This document shows, piece after piece, positions 2,545 to 52,124 of a DNA stretch of 64,000 nt. Origin of the DNA: Undibacterium sp. (GTDB lineage Bacteria; Pseudomonadota; Gammaproteobacteria; Burkholderiales; Burkholderiaceae_D). The translations under genes were made by a program, and so were the position numbers. The notes below the pieces were generated by a model. The model searched no databases and was not told the DNA's origin. It saw nothing but the letters and a program-made list of their open reading frames with translations. The stretch covers positions 1 through 64,000 of the forward strand of contig NZ_JAUSFI010000090.1 of the NCBI RefSeq assembly GCF_030651495.1, written 5' to 3'. The number at the start of each line of letters is the position of its first letter. Position 1 is the first letter of the stretch.

Positions 2545-5385
2545 TTAGCAACTTTCGTGTGTGTAAGGCGCGCTCAACGATGATTCTGGCTCTAATGCCT
2601 CCCAGTAGACTTTGACGCTTTCTGGATCTGCAGTTGTTATTTGCTGTGTCTTGCCGAATTCATCTGTGCTACCTCTGAGTATGGTGCCGTCTTGCATTTC
2701 GATACGATATGGCTGGCCGACAATTGGTTTATTGGAGTTCATATCCAATGCTCTGAATTGCTCCATGTGCAGCTTCACCCGCGTATCCGGTAATTTCCCC
2801 AATTCGGCGGCCTTTTTAGCCGCCCCGCTAAACGTGTGCTGCGCCCCGTTGACCGTAAAGTTTGCCGGGCAGGTCAAGGTAATATTGCCGCCGTCCAGCG
2901 TGACCGAAGATTGTCCTGCCATCAGCGTGATCTTTTGCTTGGCGTTGATGCTGATCTGGTCATTTACCGAAATCACCGTGATCTCTTGATCTGCCAGCAG
3001 TTCTAGCTGGTCGGTGTGCGCCTGTAGCGAGAGTGGGCCGTTGCCTGCGATGGCCTGTATCCCGCCCTGGTGACTGAACAGGCTGGTGGCGTTGCCCGAT
3101 ACGGCCGCAACGGTGTAGGCCGCGGCCCAGTGGCTGTCGCCTTGGGTGGCCCAGTGCAAGTGCTGGCCGGCGAATAGGAAGGTAGAGGCCGGGCTGGCGA
3201 GGTTGATGTTATTCGGGCCTTCCAGATGCACGATGGCGCTGGCGAACTTTTCTACCGGCTGTGCTGGATTCAGTTCTCTCGTGCCTGAGGTAGCTTTTTG
3301 TGCGCTGTGGCCATTGACGGGGGCGCTGTATTTGCCTTGTTGCTGCTGATCTAGCGCGGTGATGCGGCTCACTTGCGCCTGATTCGCCTCAGCACTGGCT
3401 AAGGCGTTTTGCTGGACGGCGACTGTCGTCATGGCAGCGCTGAGGCCTTGTGCCGCTTTGAGTTGCGCCACGCTTTCCAGCACATCCATCTGGCTCGATG
3501 TGACGCTGGCGCCTTGGCTCTGGCGGGCGCTGGTGGAGATCAGCACGCCTTCGGCACCGCGCAAGTTAGCCCAGGCATCGCTGCGCAACTCAAAGCCCAT
3601 GCCGCGATAATTGCCACGCTGGGCCGAAGCCGGCGTCTGGGCGATCAGATAACCCAGATTGAGTTGCGTGGCCGCACTGCTGCTGGCTAAACGCATGCGC
3701 AATTGCGCCTGCGTATCATCGACCACCCATTGGTTGTAGCCGCCATCTTCCAGGTTGTGACTATGCATGCCGGATACGTAACCCGCATGATTCACGCCGG
3801 AATCGACCCCGGCAGAAAACGGCGGTGTGTCGCTGCCGTTGTAGAGTTGGGCAATCACTACCGGCCGGTCGATGTCGCCTTCGATAAAATCGACCAGCAC
3901 TTCGCTGCCGATGCGCGGGGTAAAGTTACTGCCCCAGTTTGCGCCCGATAAGGCTTCGGCCACGCGCACCCAGGTGCCAGAGGTTTCATTGCCCGGCGCA
4001 TTGCCCTTGCGGTCTGCCGGGCTGCCGGTGTCGCTTAGCCCACCGGCCAGCGGCGCTTGCCCGCGTTGCCAGGGGAATTGCACTTTGATCTGATGATCCC
4101 GTTCGGTCGTCAGGGGCGTCCCTTCCAAACCCACCACCAGGGCTACTTGGGACCCGAGGGCTGTTGGCGGGCGGCGTAAGGCGGTAGCGGCAGGGACGAT
4201 GGGCACGCTCTGGCGTACGCAGCTAAAACTATTCCTATAGGTGCCGCGTTCTAAGCTACTGATGTTCAGCAGGCGCGCCATGCCTGCCTCGATATTGTTG
4301 GTGGCGGCATGCTCTACCGCGAGTACCGTGAAGGCATCGTCACCGGGGGCATAATGCGCGTGCTGACTCAAAGTAAACGCATGGCCAGCGGCCAATTGGC
4401 GTACGGCACCGCCACCTTCGAAACGTTTATTCTGCATTTCTAAGGCGCGCAATATGCGTTCGCTGTGATCGGAGGCGGCACTGCTGTCGGGATAAGCGCG
4501 TTCGCTCACGCCATCGTAGATAGACAGCGCAGGCAGTTCGCCGGCCTGCAGGCTAGAGCTCAGTTCAGCGGCGGGTGCGCTCACTTGGGCAAAATTCCAA
4601 CTCGATAAACTCACGCCGTTACTTTGTATCTGACGAATGGCGGCAAACTGATTGATCGTGTCACTGGCCTCGGTGGCGCGTACCCCATGGTAGCGGATGC
4701 TGCTGTCGCCCGCCATGGACGGTGGCGTGGCCTGCGCATCAAAGATCACTAACTGGTGTTTGGCGTGGCTGACGATCGCGCTGGTGGATGCTGCTTGATC
4801 ATGTTCAAAGCGGTAACTCAATCCCTCGGATGCCAGCAGGCGGGTTAGAAATGCCAGATCGCTTTCTCGGTATTGCGTGCAGATAGGACGTTTTTGCAGG
4901 GGCTGCGTGACATCCCACGAGAAATGGGCTTGCGGATAGTCGGCCAGCAGATCAGTGACGATCTGTTGTGCATCCTTATTCTGAAAAATAAAAGCATCGC
5001 GCCGCAAGCCTAGGAACGATAAGAATGGTTCCAAACGTAGGCGATAGCGCGCCGCGCCGCCATCGGCCCCTAGCCATTGCGCCTGGGTGCAATAGCCATG
5101 CCAGGCACGCTGGCTGCCATCAGCCTGTAACAGCCGCAGTGTGATCTCTTCACCGATAAATTGTTTCAGGTCGACGCTGGTAGAAAGACTCAGTGCATCG
5201 ATGTCGAAACAGAATAATTCGCTCACCGCTTCACGCCCGCTGAAAGCTTCTACCACCAAAGACTCGGGCAGATCAGCACCTTGTGCGGTTTCAAGTGTGA
5301 TGAGACGGGCGTGCTGGCTTAGGCGAGAGCCGAATAATTGATCGATGACGGTGGAGCGAGCGGAGGAGAGTGACAGATCGGTCAT
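2545..5385 (-). CDS. vgrG: T6SS spike protein VgrG (TssI) with C-terminal extension
   Basis: A 946-residue VgrG, the trimeric spike on the Hcp tube tip. Residues 1 to about 480 form the gp27/gp5-like Vgr core, including the typical GSEVLVDFIEGDIDRPVV segment. A DUF2345-type beta-helix region occupies roughly residues 600-850. The last 100 or so residues, from the KLHMEQF segment on, form an extra domain resembling the transthyretin-like or carrier extensions that bind dedicated effectors. The start ATG has an AAGAG site upstream. Two bases separate its stop from the peptidase gene, so the two are co-transcribed and the peptidase is the probable cargo. Upstream lies tssL, 20 bases away in the same direction. 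Confidence 0.95.
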   Translation of the reverse strand: MTDLSLSSARSTVIDQLFGSRLSQHARLITLETAQGADLPESLVVEAFSGREAVSELFCFDIDALSLSTSVDLKQFIGEEITLRLLQADGSQRAWHGYCTQAQWLGADGGAARYRLRLEPFLSFLGLRRDAFIFQNKDAQQIVTDLLADYPQAHFSWDVTQPLQKRPICTQYRESDLAFLTRLLASEGLSYRFEHDQAASTSAIVSHAKHQLVIFDAQATPPSMAGDSSIRYHGVRATEASDTINQFAAIRQIQSNGVSLSSWNFAQVSAPAAELSSSLQAGELPALSIYDGVSERAYPDSSAASDHSERILRALEMQNKRFEGGGAVRQLAAGHAFTLSQHAHYAPGDDAFTVLAVEHAATNNIEAGMARLLNISSLERGTYRNSFSCVRQSVPIVPAATALRRPPTALGSQVALVVGLEGTPLTTERDHQIKVQFPWQRGQAPLAGGLSDTGSPADRKGNAPGNETSGTWVRVAEALSGANWGSNFTPRIGSEVLVDFIEGDIDRPVVIAQLYNGSDTPPFSAGVDSGVNHAGYVSGMHSHNLEDGGYNQWVVDDTQAQLRMRLASSSAATQLNLGYLIAQTPASAQRGNYRGMGFELRSDAWANLRGAEGVLISTSARQSQGASVTSSQMDVLESVAQLKAAQGLSAAMTTVAVQQNALASAEANQAQVSRITALDQQQQGKYSAPVNGHSAQKATSGTRELNPAQPVEKFASAIVHLEGPNNINLASPASTFLFAGQHLHWATQGDSHWAAAYTVAAVSGNATSLFSHQGGIQAIAGNGPLSLQAHTDQLELLADQEITVISVNDQISINAKQKITLMAGQSSVTLDGGNITLTCPANFTVNGAQHTFSGAAKKAAELGKLPDTRVKLHMEQFRALDMNSNKPIVGQPYRIEMQDGTILRGSTDEFGKTQQITTADPESVKVYWEALEPESSLSAPYTHESC

Positions 5386-47439: not shown

Positions 47440-47919
47440 ATGCAAATTACAGAAAACACCGCCGTCAGCTTGAATTACACCATGTTTAACGTCGAAGGCA
47501 AGATTATCGACAAGAACCATGAGCCTATCGTTTACCTGCATGGTGGGTACGACAACATATTGCCTGCCGTAGAAGTGGCATTGACAGGGAAGAGCGTTGG
47601 CGACAGCGTCTCCGTAACGATGGCGCCAGAGGAAGCCTTTGGCGAATTTGATCCTGTGATGATACGCGAAGAGGAAATTGGCTTGTTTCCTCCTGATATC
47701 GAAGTGGGCATCATGTTTGAGACGCGCGATCCAGAAACCGAAGAAACCTTGCAATTTCGCGTCACCGCGATTGATGCCGGCCGGGTCACGGTTGATGGCA
47801 ATCATCCGCTGGCAGGGATGACAATCCGTTTTGAGGCAACCGTTCTGGATGTGCGCGCCGCAACTAGCGAAGAAATCGCTCACGGTCATGTGCATGGCGA
47901 ACACGGGCATGAACACTAA
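47440..47919 (+). CDS. slyD: FKBP-type peptidyl-prolyl isomerase, SlyD-like
   Basis: A 159-residue SlyD-type protein: an FKBP domain interrupted by the IF (chaperone) insert around residues 65-120, with VYLHGGYDNILPAVEVALTG as the FKBP signature. A short histidine-rich tail (HGHVHGEHGHEH) can bind nickel or other metals. It catalyses proline isomerisation and chaperones folding in the cytoplasm. It is monocistronic. Confidence 0.93.
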   Translation: MQITENTAVSLNYTMFNVEGKIIDKNHEPIVYLHGGYDNILPAVEVALTGKSVGDSVSVTMAPEEAFGEFDPVMIREEEIGLFPPDIEVGIMFETRDPETEETLQFRVTAIDAGRVTVDGNHPLAGMTIRFEATVLDVRAATSEEIAHGHVHGEHGHEH

Positions 47920-48301: not shown

Positions 48302-48580
48302 ATGAAAGACTATTATTTTATTCTCGGAATCGCCAATACGGCAACATTGGCCGATGTAAAAAAAGCCTTCAGATTGAAAGCCGCCGAGTTTCATCCGGAT
48401 CGAAATGCATCCGTGCTGGCACCAGAAAAATTTCATGCGGTAAAGGAGGCTTACGATGTTTTGTCAGATGAGTCCGCACGCTCGGCTTACGATGAAAACC
48501 GTCGGCGCAATTTACTCGAGTCACCCATAGAGACGGCATCTGAGATTTGGAAAAATTATTTATCAGGAGTATTAAAGTGA
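48302..48580 (+). CDS. Small J-domain protein, first gene of an unknown four-gene set
   Basis: A 92-residue protein that is almost only a J-domain: DYYFILGI start, helix II, His31-Pro-Asp33 tripeptide, and the EAYDVLSDESARSAYDE end. About 22 extra residues follow. It lacks the G/F region, zinc finger and C-terminal domains of DnaJ. J-domains stimulate DnaK/Hsp70 ATPase, so it should recruit Hsp70 to a particular client. The ATG at 48302 with GAGG upstream is chosen; the open frame extends upstream without similarity. Its stop overlaps the next gene's GTG (GTGA). Confidence 0.85.
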   Translation: MKDYYFILGIANTATLADVKKAFRLKAAEFHPDRNASVLAPEKFHAVKEAYDVLSDESARSAYDENRRRNLLESPIETASEIWKNYLSGVLK

Positions 48581-49176
48581 AATTTTCACGATTTTTTGAA
48601 GACCTGATTTCGGTGTATAACGCCGAATTAGAAGATTTACGGACCGATTCCGAAGGTAAGGATATTTTAAAGTCCCGCCTGAAAGAAAAACACGAACAGT
48701 TGCCTTTTTTACTGCCGATGATGGGCAGCAATCCAGAAATGTTGGCGGTCGCCTTCCATGGCGGTTTCCGTTTCATGAATCCGCTGGTGATGGAATCGCT
48801 GGCCTCGAAAGAGCCAAACAAGCATCCTTCATGGAAAGAATTATCGGCGACGGTGAAGTTGGAACCCTGGGCGGAAAAACTCAGTCAAATTGTTTTGCAA
48901 GACAGTAGTGGCGATGCTTTTCTGGTCGTTGCCGCTTGCTTGGAATATTTAAACAAGAGCAATAAGTCGCGACAAGCTAGCCCTTCGAATTCTCTGGACG
49001 AAGAAGAAGATAAGGACAGCGATGACGAAGGCAGTGATGAGTTGAAGGAAAATGGCGACCTGGACGGCAATTATGGACGGCATGGACGTGATGATGGCGA
49101 CGATGGCGATGACTACGATTTGGCCGAAGCTGGTTCCGAATGGTTGGTCGAACAAGGTTTTGACCGTAAAGATTAA
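48577..49176 (+). CDS. Unidentified protein with highly acidic tail
   Basis: A 199-residue protein started at GTG 48577, with AGGAG (48565-48569) upstream, coupled to the J-domain gene. Residues 1-130 look folded, helical, with no signal or membrane segment. Residues 140-190 are nearly all Asp/Glu/Gly/Ser, with DDGDDGDDYD near the end. I do not recognise the family. Acidic low-complexity tails can act as intramolecular chaperones, bind basic partners, or mimic nucleic acid; none is shown here. Confidence 0.7.
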   Translation: MKFSRFFEDLISVYNAELEDLRTDSEGKDILKSRLKEKHEQLPFLLPMMGSNPEMLAVAFHGGFRFMNPLVMESLASKEPNKHPSWKELSATVKLEPWAEKLSQIVLQDSSGDAFLVVAACLEYLNKSNKSRQASPSNSLDEEEDKDSDDEGSDELKENGDLDGNYGRHGRDDGDDGDDYDLAEAGSEWLVEQGFDRKD

Positions 49177-49189
49177 TTAAGGATACCCG

Positions 49190-49933
49190 ATGAATTACCC
49201 CGCATTGTTAGAGGCACAAAGCCTGGTTAAAGTTGGTGATATCGCCGGTGCTGAATTTGCGTTGGCCAACTTGGCAGAGACTGAAGGTGACAAGGCATTG
49301 GTTGCCGCGCTAGATGAATTTCCGCCTAAGGATTTGTTAGCGATCATTCGAGAATATGACGCTTCCAAAGAGTCGCTGGTGAATTTACTGGTCACGCCTG
49401 AACAATTCGCTCAGGCAGTGGTATTGGAAAAGCGCTATGGCGACCTGACTCACGAACAGTTACGCGGCATGGTCAATTCTGTCATTTTTCGTGAAGGTGC
49501 TGATCCGGCTGAATTTTTGTACGAAATAGCCGAGGTCGAGGGTGGTTACGATGCGTTGGTCGATTATCTGTGTGATCGCACTCAGATGGTTGAGCATTTT
49601 TATCGCTATGCTACTTTTGATTTATACGAATACGGTGATGAATCTAAGACGCAGGCCATTGATGACGACTTGCTGAATCTGACTCGGGAGACAGAAACGC
49701 GTGCTTCGGCGATGGATATGGCGAATGTGGTCGATCACGACTGGATGGAAGTGACTTATTTGCTCCGTTACGAGTTGCCAGAAATTTTCCGTGAAGTACT
49801 GTTGAAATTGCGTGCTCGTCACTTAGTGGCTATGCAGTTTATTGAACCTGAGGACGTTGTTGAGCTGGCAGCGGAAAGGGAGAAAAATACTGATGACGGA
49901 GATGATAAAGATGATGATGAGTCAGCACTTTAA
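49190..49933 (+). CDS. Unidentified helical protein with acidic C-terminus
   Basis: A 247-residue protein, 13 bases after the previous gene, with an AAGGA site upstream. It is acidic throughout and helical; the N-terminal part (LVKVGDIAGAEFALANLAETEGD) resembles TPR- or SEL1-like helix pairs. The tail ends in NTDDGDDKDDDESAL. There is no signal peptide or transmembrane segment, so it is cytoplasmic. The shared Asp-rich tail with the preceding protein suggests they act together. The family is unknown. Confidence 0.75.
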   Translation: MNYPALLEAQSLVKVGDIAGAEFALANLAETEGDKALVAALDEFPPKDLLAIIREYDASKESLVNLLVTPEQFAQAVVLEKRYGDLTHEQLRGMVNSVIFREGADPAEFLYEIAEVEGGYDALVDYLCDRTQMVEHFYRYATFDLYEYGDESKTQAIDDDLLNLTRETETRASAMDMANVVDHDWMEVTYLLRYELPEIFREVLLKLRARHLVAMQFIEPEDVVELAAEREKNTDDGDDKDDDESAL

Positions 49934-50030
49934 AATTTAATAGTTTGTGTAGCTGACGCTATTTACTCATCCGTTTAGTAAAGCGTCCGCCGCAATCCAT
50001 TTCAATTCTTTTTTACTGTTGCTTGAGCCT

Positions 50031-51260
50031 ATGTCTGAAAATACTTTTGATGTCGCACTGATCGACAAGCGCCCTTTTTTTGAAACAGTACTACGCTATG
50101 GTGTGAAGCAATCCATCATCGATAGCGTAAAAATAGCTGCCATAGAAAACGATGCCCCTAAGGGGATGGTGCAAATAGCAGAAACTTTCGGCAGTAAATA
50201 TCTACGTCCAGAAATCGAAGCAGCGCGTAAACGTATCGTTAATTTGGTTAGCCTGTATTTGTTGGAAACATCAAAAGGAGATCTGGAGCTAGCCTCGAAA
50301 CTGGTACGCGACAATACTTTTTTGACTTTGTCTCGCGGCGGTTCTGGCTTGTTAAAAGCCTTGTTTGCGATGCCTGAATATGCTTTGCTCGGTAGTGTAG
50401 AGAAAGGTCGGGTAGAGGATTTCCTGGAGTTTTGGTCGCTCAAGGAAAAGCCGCTGGATTATCATAAGGCATTAGAGCAGAGACAACTCAATGCATTGGA
50501 AATAGAGGCCGGATTCTGGTTTGGGGCGAGCTTGGGAATCTCCCGCAGCTTGTTGCAAGATGAGGATATCGAGGCGTCATCCGTAGTCAGATCTGCAATG
50601 TTGGCGCAATTGATAGGCAAGCCCGAGATTTCTATTTTGAATCAGATCGAGTTTGCGACCATATTGGAAGCTATCCGTGCCAAAGGCTTGCTCAATAAAA
50701 GCCGCAAGAAAAAAATTGATAGCGCAATCGAAGAGATACCCGAGAAGTATCATGCAATTGTGCAGCGCGTCCGGCAAGAAATTATTAACCAGGATATGCC
50801 GAAAATTCAGGATATGTCGATCTCCCTGGATAAATTGGTGTATGAGTTGAAAGACCGCTATTTCATCCGGGATCATGAAGTTGAAGATACTTCAGATTAC
50901 GATGCATTGGTATCTAAAGAGTGGACCCGACTCACCAAAGGGAAAACAGATATCGATTCTTTGTTGACTTTGTTTCTTTGCCTAACGGTGGGTCTCGCTC
51001 CTAAAACCAGCCTGCCTGAAAAAACAGCTAAAACCTTGATAAAAAAGATTCGTAACGAAGGTTTTCATCCTGAACTTGCAAGCGAATGGATCAAGGTTGC
51101 CGCACCACATGAGAAACAAGAAGGATTATTAGAGGATTGGAATGACTTTCTGGAAGATGCCAAAAATTATTTACTCGATGATTGGGATACCACTTGTAGT
51201 GGCGCCTTGCGTTTTTTAAGTGAAAATTGTCACATCGAAAAAACGGCAAAAAATAAATAA
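50031..51260 (+). CDS. Unidentified 409-residue protein, last gene of the J-domain set
   Basis: A cytoplasmic, largely helical protein. The ATG at 50031 (MSENTFDVAL) is chosen over a TTG at 50019. No recognised domain, signal or membrane segment. Two Lys/Arg-rich patches (around residue 225, SRKKKIDSAIEE, and 335-345) contrast with acidic tails of the preceding proteins and could bind them. A 97-base gap separates it from the previous gene, so it may have its own promoter. It ends at a strong terminator. Confidence 0.75.
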   Translation: MSENTFDVALIDKRPFFETVLRYGVKQSIIDSVKIAAIENDAPKGMVQIAETFGSKYLRPEIEAARKRIVNLVSLYLLETSKGDLELASKLVRDNTFLTLSRGGSGLLKALFAMPEYALLGSVEKGRVEDFLEFWSLKEKPLDYHKALEQRQLNALEIEAGFWFGASLGISRSLLQDEDIEASSVVRSAMLAQLIGKPEISILNQIEFATILEAIRAKGLLNKSRKKKIDSAIEEIPEKYHAIVQRVRQEIINQDMPKIQDMSISLDKLVYELKDRYFIRDHEVEDTSDYDALVSKEWTRLTKGKTDIDSLLTLFLCLTVGLAPKTSLPEKTAKTLIKKIRNEGFHPELASEWIKVAAPHEKQEGLLEDWNDFLEDAKNYLLDDWDTTCSGALRFLSENCHIEKTAKNK

Positions 51261-51301
51261 GGACAAGACAGCAGGTTGTCGCAGAGCATTTGTGATGCCA
51301 T

Positions 51302-51329
51302 AAAAAAAGACGCCGTAGCGTCTTTTTTT
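51302..51329. terminator. Bidirectional intrinsic terminator
   Basis: A perfect stem AAAAAAAGACGC / GCGTCTTTTTTT with CGTA loop between the convergent unknown 409-residue gene and ppiC. It marks the end of the J-domain set. Confidence 0.92.
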
Positions 51330-51350
51330 ATAAGGCATTGTAATTCAGTA

Positions 51351-52124
51351 TTATTGAATTTTTGCTTTTTTCATTAATGCTTGCTGATAAGTCTGCAATT
51401 TTTGTTGCTGTAAACCTTCAACAATTTGTTGTTTTACTTCGTCCATGGCTGGAAACTTGGCTGTACGGACATCATCCAATTTAATGACATGGTATCCAAA
51501 TTCTGATTTTACCGGTGTTTCAGTAAATTGACCTTTCTGCAGAGAAATCAAGGCATCTGAGAACGGTTTAACAAACGTAGCAGGAGATGCCCAGTCCAGA
51601 TCCCCGCCTTTAGCAGCAGAACCTGTGTCTTTGGATTGTTTTGCCAATTCATCAAATTTAGCACCAGCCTTCAATTTGGAAATGATGGCTTTAGCATCCT
51701 CTTCTTTTTCTACCAAAATATGGAAAGCGTGATATTCCTTGTCGCCAGCTTGTGCTTTTGCTTTATTGTATTCGGCGGTAATTTCAGCATCCGAAATAGG
51801 ATTTTTAGTGACGTATTCACGCATTAAAGCTTGAATCAAAATTTGTTGGCGAGTTACTTCCAATTGTGTTTTAACATCGGAGTTTGCTGCGACGCCAGTT
51901 TTTTCTGCTTCTTGTAACAATACTTCCATGCCAATCAGGCGGTCTTTGATCTGCGCGCGCAATTGAGGAGTGTCTTGCTGTCCCTGAGCTTTCGCTTGTT
52001 TTACGACCAATTCCACTTTACTGGACGGAATTGCTTTGCCATTGACCACGGCTAAGTTCTGCGCCATGGCAGGGATTGCAGTTGCGAGAAGTACTACCAG
52101 CAAATAAGCAGGTTTGAAAGTCAT
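51351..52124 (-). CDS. Periplasmic parvulin-type peptidyl-prolyl isomerase
   Basis: A 257-residue protein with a signal peptide ending Pro-Ala-Met-Ala-Gln, an N-terminal SurA-like helical region, then a PpiC/parvulin domain (about 130-225: YHAFHILVEKEEDAKAI, GGDLDWASPATFVKPF, EFGYHVIKLDD). It helps fold exported proteins. It lies 41 bases downstream of bolA, in the bolA-yciB-msrB block seen in many Burkholderiales. Confidence 0.92.
   Translation of the reverse strand: MTFKPAYLLVVLLATAIPAMAQNLAVVNGKAIPSSKVELVVKQAKAQGQQDTPQLRAQIKDRLIGMEVLLQEAEKTGVAANSDVKTQLEVTRQQILIQALMREYVTKNPISDAEITAEYNKAKAQAGDKEYHAFHILVEKEEDAKAIISKLKAGAKFDELAKQSKDTGSAAKGGDLDWASPATFVKPFSDALISLQKGQFTETPVKSEFGYHVIKLDDVRTAKFPAMDEVKQQIVEGLQQQKLQTYQQALMKKAKIQ

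Follow-up and report, generated by a model that had tools for sequence, protein, structure and literature searches.

The operon atcJABC of Shewanella oneidensis (SO_1850, SO_1849, SO_1848 and SO_1846) is a cold-adaptation operon (PMC6715715). In this bacterium, DnaK is stimulated by AtcJ, AtcC is bound by the last 21 residues of AtcJ (by whole AtcJ at 7 nM) and AtcB is bound by AtcC. At 7 °C, atcJ, atcB and atcC are required; atcA is dispensable (PMC6715715). In addition, a meeting report states that RNA polymerase is contacted by AtcB (PMC7871303). Here we analysed four genes in a stretch of 64,000 nt from Undibacterium sp. (the window, to which all positions refer). Based on profile comparisons, these genes, at positions 48302-51260, are almost certainly a divergent Burkholderiales homologue of atcJABC and not a new system:

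48302..48580, forward strand, atcJ homologue, encoding a 92-residue J protein (Pfam DnaJ, E = 4.8e-20)
48577..49176, forward strand, atcA homologue, 199 residues, with a GTG start at 48577 (NCBIfam AtcA, hhalign)
49190..49933, forward strand, atcB homologue, 247 residues (hhalign)
50031..51260, forward strand, atcC homologue, 409 residues (NCBIfam AtcC, hhalign)

Homology of the four genes to atcJABC

For the comparison, a gamma set was defined by the NCBIfam model of AtcB, NF047889, which matches 38 of 295 genomes in the order of a SeqA-bearing genome, 34 of them above the curated cut-off. Fifteen of these 38 loci were compared, consisting of 11 typical gamma loci and all four loci below the cut-off, which are called intermediate here. 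To judge from the Shewanella study (PMC6715715), the gamma genomes compared would be Shewanella, Moritella, Aeromonas and their kin. The four protein families from the Burkholderiales (beta) loci were then aligned by hhalign with the pooled sequences of the 11 gamma and three intermediate loci; one intermediate, located on a short contig, was excluded. Each beta family found its own counterpart, with probabilities of 99.8% for AtcJ, 96.9% for AtcA, 94.0% for AtcB and 96.1% for AtcC. Wrong-family pairs did not exceed 3.6% in any comparison, and the wrong partners of the AtcB homologue did not exceed 0.6%. The alignments spanned 88 columns including the tail for AtcJ, 193 columns for AtcB and, in case of AtcC, positions 15-258 of the beta family on positions 12-254 of the gamma family. 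Against the gamma sequences alone, the probabilities were 99.5% (AtcJ), 96.2% (AtcA), 39.8% (AtcB) and 94.8% (AtcC), and against the intermediates alone they were 99.6% for AtcJ and 74.8% for AtcB. The gamma and intermediate families paired with each other at 92.8% (AtcA), 98.9% (AtcB) and 95.9% (AtcC).

The beta profiles located the gamma genes correctly (E ≤0.05, Z = 2000) in 15 of 15 loci for AtcJ, AtcA and AtcB and in 11 of 15 for AtcC, for which the intermediates were missed; 20 further overlapping loci stand outside this count. The NCBIfam models gave matches to three of the window proteins. The AtcJ model covered residues 1-86 with 51.6 bits (cut-off 150), the AtcA model 26.3 bits (E = 5.7e-6, cut-off 200) and the AtcC model 25.8 bits (E = 6.8e-6, cut-off 370). 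Among 20 relatives, the AtcA model matched 14 and the AtcC model all 20.

An earlier note on this DNA, made from the sequence alone, had proposed an undescribed system in which none of the three partners of the J protein was recognisable. By hhalign, each partner pairs with its own Atc counterpart, and the partners thus appear as AtcA, AtcB and AtcC homologues of an operon already published (PMC6715715), belonging to families that are known though little studied.

Several observations weigh against this assignment. For the J protein, the generic DnaJ model (77.6 bits) scores above the AtcJ model. The least secure of the four is AtcB: the NCBIfam AtcB model matched five of the 20 relatives with a best E value of 0.0016, and neither the window protein nor the consensus of the third family gave a match to it. 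Moreover, the assignment of AtcB depends on pooling the gamma and intermediate sequences, because separately they gave the 39.8% and 74.8% mentioned above. With the intermediates alone, AtcA and AtcC reached only 12.0% and 6.0%, respectively, and the assignments of these two proteins therefore depend on the gamma set. A gap of 97 bases precedes the atcC homologue and bears on the question of its co-transcription. Finally, all scores lie far below the cut-offs of the equivalog models NF050028, NF047888, NF047889 and NF047890, and therefore the four proteins were classed as divergent homologues and not as these equivalogs.

The intermediate operons (L204-L207) form a third branch of the atcJABC family. 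They encode AtcA proteins of 137-153 residues, AtcB proteins of 215-217 residues ending with FAPL and an AtcC-like partner of 306 residues.

In a separate consensus scan, a lead pointed to the AtcB homologue as a relative of HflD (E = 0.0026); it was rejected, as hhalign gave a probability of only 1.9 to 3.8%.

Operon layout, distribution and selection

The four genes are arranged head to tail on one strand. The start of the atcA homologue overlaps the stop codon of the J gene by four bases (GTGA), followed by 13 bases between the atcA and atcB homologues. Downstream of the fourth gene a terminator is predicted:

51301..51330, forward strand, hairpin with a T-run, terminator (fold of -14.7 kcal/mol)

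A consensus terminator scan did not list this hairpin, and the four matches which it returned in the region correspond to the level given by shuffled sequences. In these respects the description in the earlier note was confirmed: it had reported a 92-residue J-domain with intact HPD, a second gene coupled through GTGA whose product has an Asp/Glu/Gly tail (an Asp/Glu/Gly-rich stretch is seen near the end), a third, acidic protein with an Asp-rich end starting 13 bases later, a helical fourth protein (the structure model is nearly all helical) and a terminator closing the set.

Searches in 60 genomes detected the third and the fourth protein each in 34 of them, namely in the own genome, in 32 of 35 other Undibacterium genomes and in one of 24 genomes from other families of the order. 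The assemblies of the three Undibacterium genomes without a match have completeness values of 65%, 73% and 94%. Neighbourhoods were checked in 33 of the 34 positive genomes; in the 33rd, the contig starts inside gene A. The order J-A-B-C and the 4-base overlap between J and A were found in all 32 genomes for which both genes were available, the own genome included.

When named genomes were scanned using the third protein as the query, 153 loci were obtained, of which 80 were analysed; many of these are from the same genomes as in the 60-genome search. The carriers among the 80 loci are Undibacterium, Sapientia, Solimicrobium, Herminiimonas, Glaciimonas, Collimonas, Herbaspirillum, Rhodoferax, Aquabacterium, Comamonas and other Burkholderiales. 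Several of these genera are dwellers of cold water or soil. The order J-A-B-C on one strand was observed in 77 of the 80 loci; that the genes stay together in other genomes had been the test suggested in the earlier note. Among the three exceptions, L071 and L121 are truncated at the end of a contig or locus, and L109 contains a gap of 100 Ns within gene A, to the left of which both the start of A and a J gene are missing. Gene A was found in 80 of 80 loci. In one locus (L079, positions 3251-4718, also present as G007), A and B form one open frame of 478 residues, which is due either to a true gene fusion or to an error in the assembly.

Selection was analysed by the ratio of non-synonymous to synonymous substitution rates (dN/dS) in 12 tests, comparing each of the four genes with three congeners. 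A value was obtained in four tests: 0.065 and 0.064 for J, 0.041 for A and 0.014 for B. These three genes are under purifying selection. In the remaining eight tests dS was saturated, including all three for C, for which dN was 0.16-0.20.

A gene for an FKBP-type peptidyl-prolyl isomerase, which we take to be SlyD-like, is located directly upstream of the operon on the same strand (47440-47919). Such a gene occupies this position in 9 of 11 Undibacterium loci. Of the 78 beta loci with a J gene, five were too short to be evaluated; 32 of the other 73 have the isomerase gene, compared to none of the 15 gamma or intermediate loci. A second isomerase gene, presumably PpiC-like, converges on the operon from the other side (51351-52124), and hence the operon is flanked by two isomerase genes; the same second neighbour occurs in one of 11 congener loci.

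Conserved features of the four proteins

Within the four reading frames, five segments were delimited:

48392..48400, forward strand, HPD motif of the AtcJ homologue, residues 31-33 (from the translation)
48524..48550, forward strand, PX7W motif of the J tail, residues P75-W83 (motif pattern in the translation)
48994..49173, forward strand, acidic C-terminal region of the AtcA homologue (Asp+Glu composition)
49853..49930, forward strand, acidic tail of the AtcB homologue, modelled with low confidence and terminating in ESAL (score below 50 at residues 222-247 of the structure model)
50883..51257, forward strand, extra C-terminal part of the AtcC homologue, residues 285-409 (hhalign, conservation)

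The HPD motif is present in 78 of 78 named beta loci that have a J gene. The PX7W motif occurs in the J tails of 32 of 32 genomes, of 78 of 78 named beta loci and of 15 of 15 gamma or intermediate loci; by chance it was found in 419 of 15,600 shuffled tails (2.7%). PX7W is reported as the AtcJ signature, and an abstract by Weber from 2023 reportedly deals with this motif and with the distribution between the beta and gamma groups.

Acidic ends characterise two of the partners. The last 45 residues of AtcA contain 39% Asp+Glu in 79 beta proteins (17% in the rest of the protein) and 44% in the 15 gamma or intermediate proteins (14% in the rest); 56 of the 79 beta proteins end with DRK[DE]. The end of beta AtcB contains 33% Asp+Glu compared to 19% in the rest, and 77 of 79 proteins close with ESAL or ESAI. 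No acidic bias was found at the end of the gamma and intermediate AtcB proteins (21% versus 21%). The structure model of the AtcB homologue is of moderate confidence, with a predicted local distance difference test (pLDDT) score of 75; the model of the whole AtcC homologue reached 91.

AtcC has 400-431 residues in the 75 beta loci with a whole gene, 296-301 in the 11 gamma loci and 306 in three intermediate proteins. Residues 1-284 of the window protein hold the similarity to gamma and intermediate AtcC (hhalign probability 96.4%), while for residues 285-409 no counterpart was found in the gamma or intermediate AtcC compared (0.2%). Conservation per block of 20 residues is 0.54-0.71 over residues 281-400 and 0.34-0.76 elsewhere, with 0.37 for the last nine residues. 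As judged from these alignments, the C-terminus of Burkholderiales AtcC is extended by a conserved part of about 110-125 residues that is absent from the gamma operons compared.

Proposed mechanism, alternatives and comparison with known systems

Because of the homology to the S. oneidensis operon, we infer the same binding and the same role in Undibacterium. The Undibacterium atcJABC products probably constitute a tether in the order DnaK-AtcJ-AtcC-AtcB-target. AtcJ would recruit DnaK via its HPD-bearing J domain and would hold AtcC through the PX7W tail; AtcC would hold AtcB, and AtcB would position the set, and with it DnaK, at a specific target, allowing growth to continue in the cold. A role in the cold appears to be the probable function in this host as well. 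The most likely target is RNA polymerase, which AtcB would contact, a suggestion that we put forward tentatively. The proposal in the earlier note of a dedicated J module steering DnaK is thus favoured by homology, and its stress role by the cold phenotype of the studied relative; its defence role is disfavoured.

It is rather unlikely that AtcC or AtcB is instead a client which AtcJ passes to DnaK for folding or remodelling, in the manner of HscB with IscU; the Atc proteins would then have their own activity in the cold. The J protein and its partners are encoded together in the great majority of loci, as given above, and a client relationship is one option put forward by Maillot et al. However, the same authors consider the binding of AtcJ to AtcC at 7 nM an ill fit to a transient contact between co-chaperone and substrate (PMC6715715).

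Similarly unlikely is the possibility that the same tether serves another condition, with the Burkholderiales operon used in another stress or growth phase and cold being the Shewanella use. Nothing positive for another condition was found in this analysis, and the cold-water or soil habitats of several carrier genera speak against it. On the other side, expression of the Shewanella operon differs little between 7, 28 and 37 °C, and the study leaves room for another role (PMC6715715). AtcA, dispensable for cold growth there (PMC6715715), is nevertheless present in all 80 beta loci, and the extra part sets beta AtcC apart. The first of these two points makes an open question testable; the conserved extra part, confined to one branch, constitutes a second testable question.

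An extension of the tether, which we consider improbable, is that the Burkholderiales lineage has moulded atcJABC into an adaptor that loads DnaK onto RNA polymerase. The AtcA and AtcB tails, both acidic, would then be nucleic-acid mimics or docking peptides clearing or gripping cold-stalled polymerase, and the extra part of AtcC would provide an additional contact with polymerase or client. If true, the operon would encode a chaperone adaptor dedicated to sustaining the activity of a proteobacterial RNA polymerase at low temperature.

An anti-phage defence module using DnaK, for which the inference in the earlier note is the one argument, is extremely improbable, as none of the four proteins matched PADLOC models at E values up to 10, the third protein was absent from 72,556 plasmid records and the fourth from 50,697 phage records (tblastn, E = 0.01), presence in the genus is steady and the studied relative works in cold growth. 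Hence, the operon should no longer be labelled a defence candidate. Moreover, a little-studied DnaK-targeting operon of the Shewanella type is now linked to many freshwater and soil Burkholderiales, and the 80 named loci provide natural variants for finding the parts that matter.

Compared with DnaJ and CbpA, the 92-residue protein has the J domain in common, and generic DnaJ models outscore the AtcJ model, but it is without the glycine/phenylalanine (G/F) region, the zinc finger and the C-terminal domains. In the case of HscB-IscU, a class C J protein and its client are encoded together (PMC6715715). The likeness is one of working only; homology of the partners was neither found nor is it claimed. 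The closest system is atcJABC of S. oneidensis. The J/A junction differs, with a 4-base overlap here and atcA 120 bp downstream in S. oneidensis (PMC6715715), and so does the end of AtcB, which is SFLD without acidic bias in the gamma proteins and ESAL or ESAI with an acidic tail in the beta proteins. Shared are the HPD motif at residues 31-33 and the short tail in J proteins of similar length (92 residues here, 94 in S. oneidensis), as well as the gene order, and the four families appear homologous to those of operons with a curated AtcB match.
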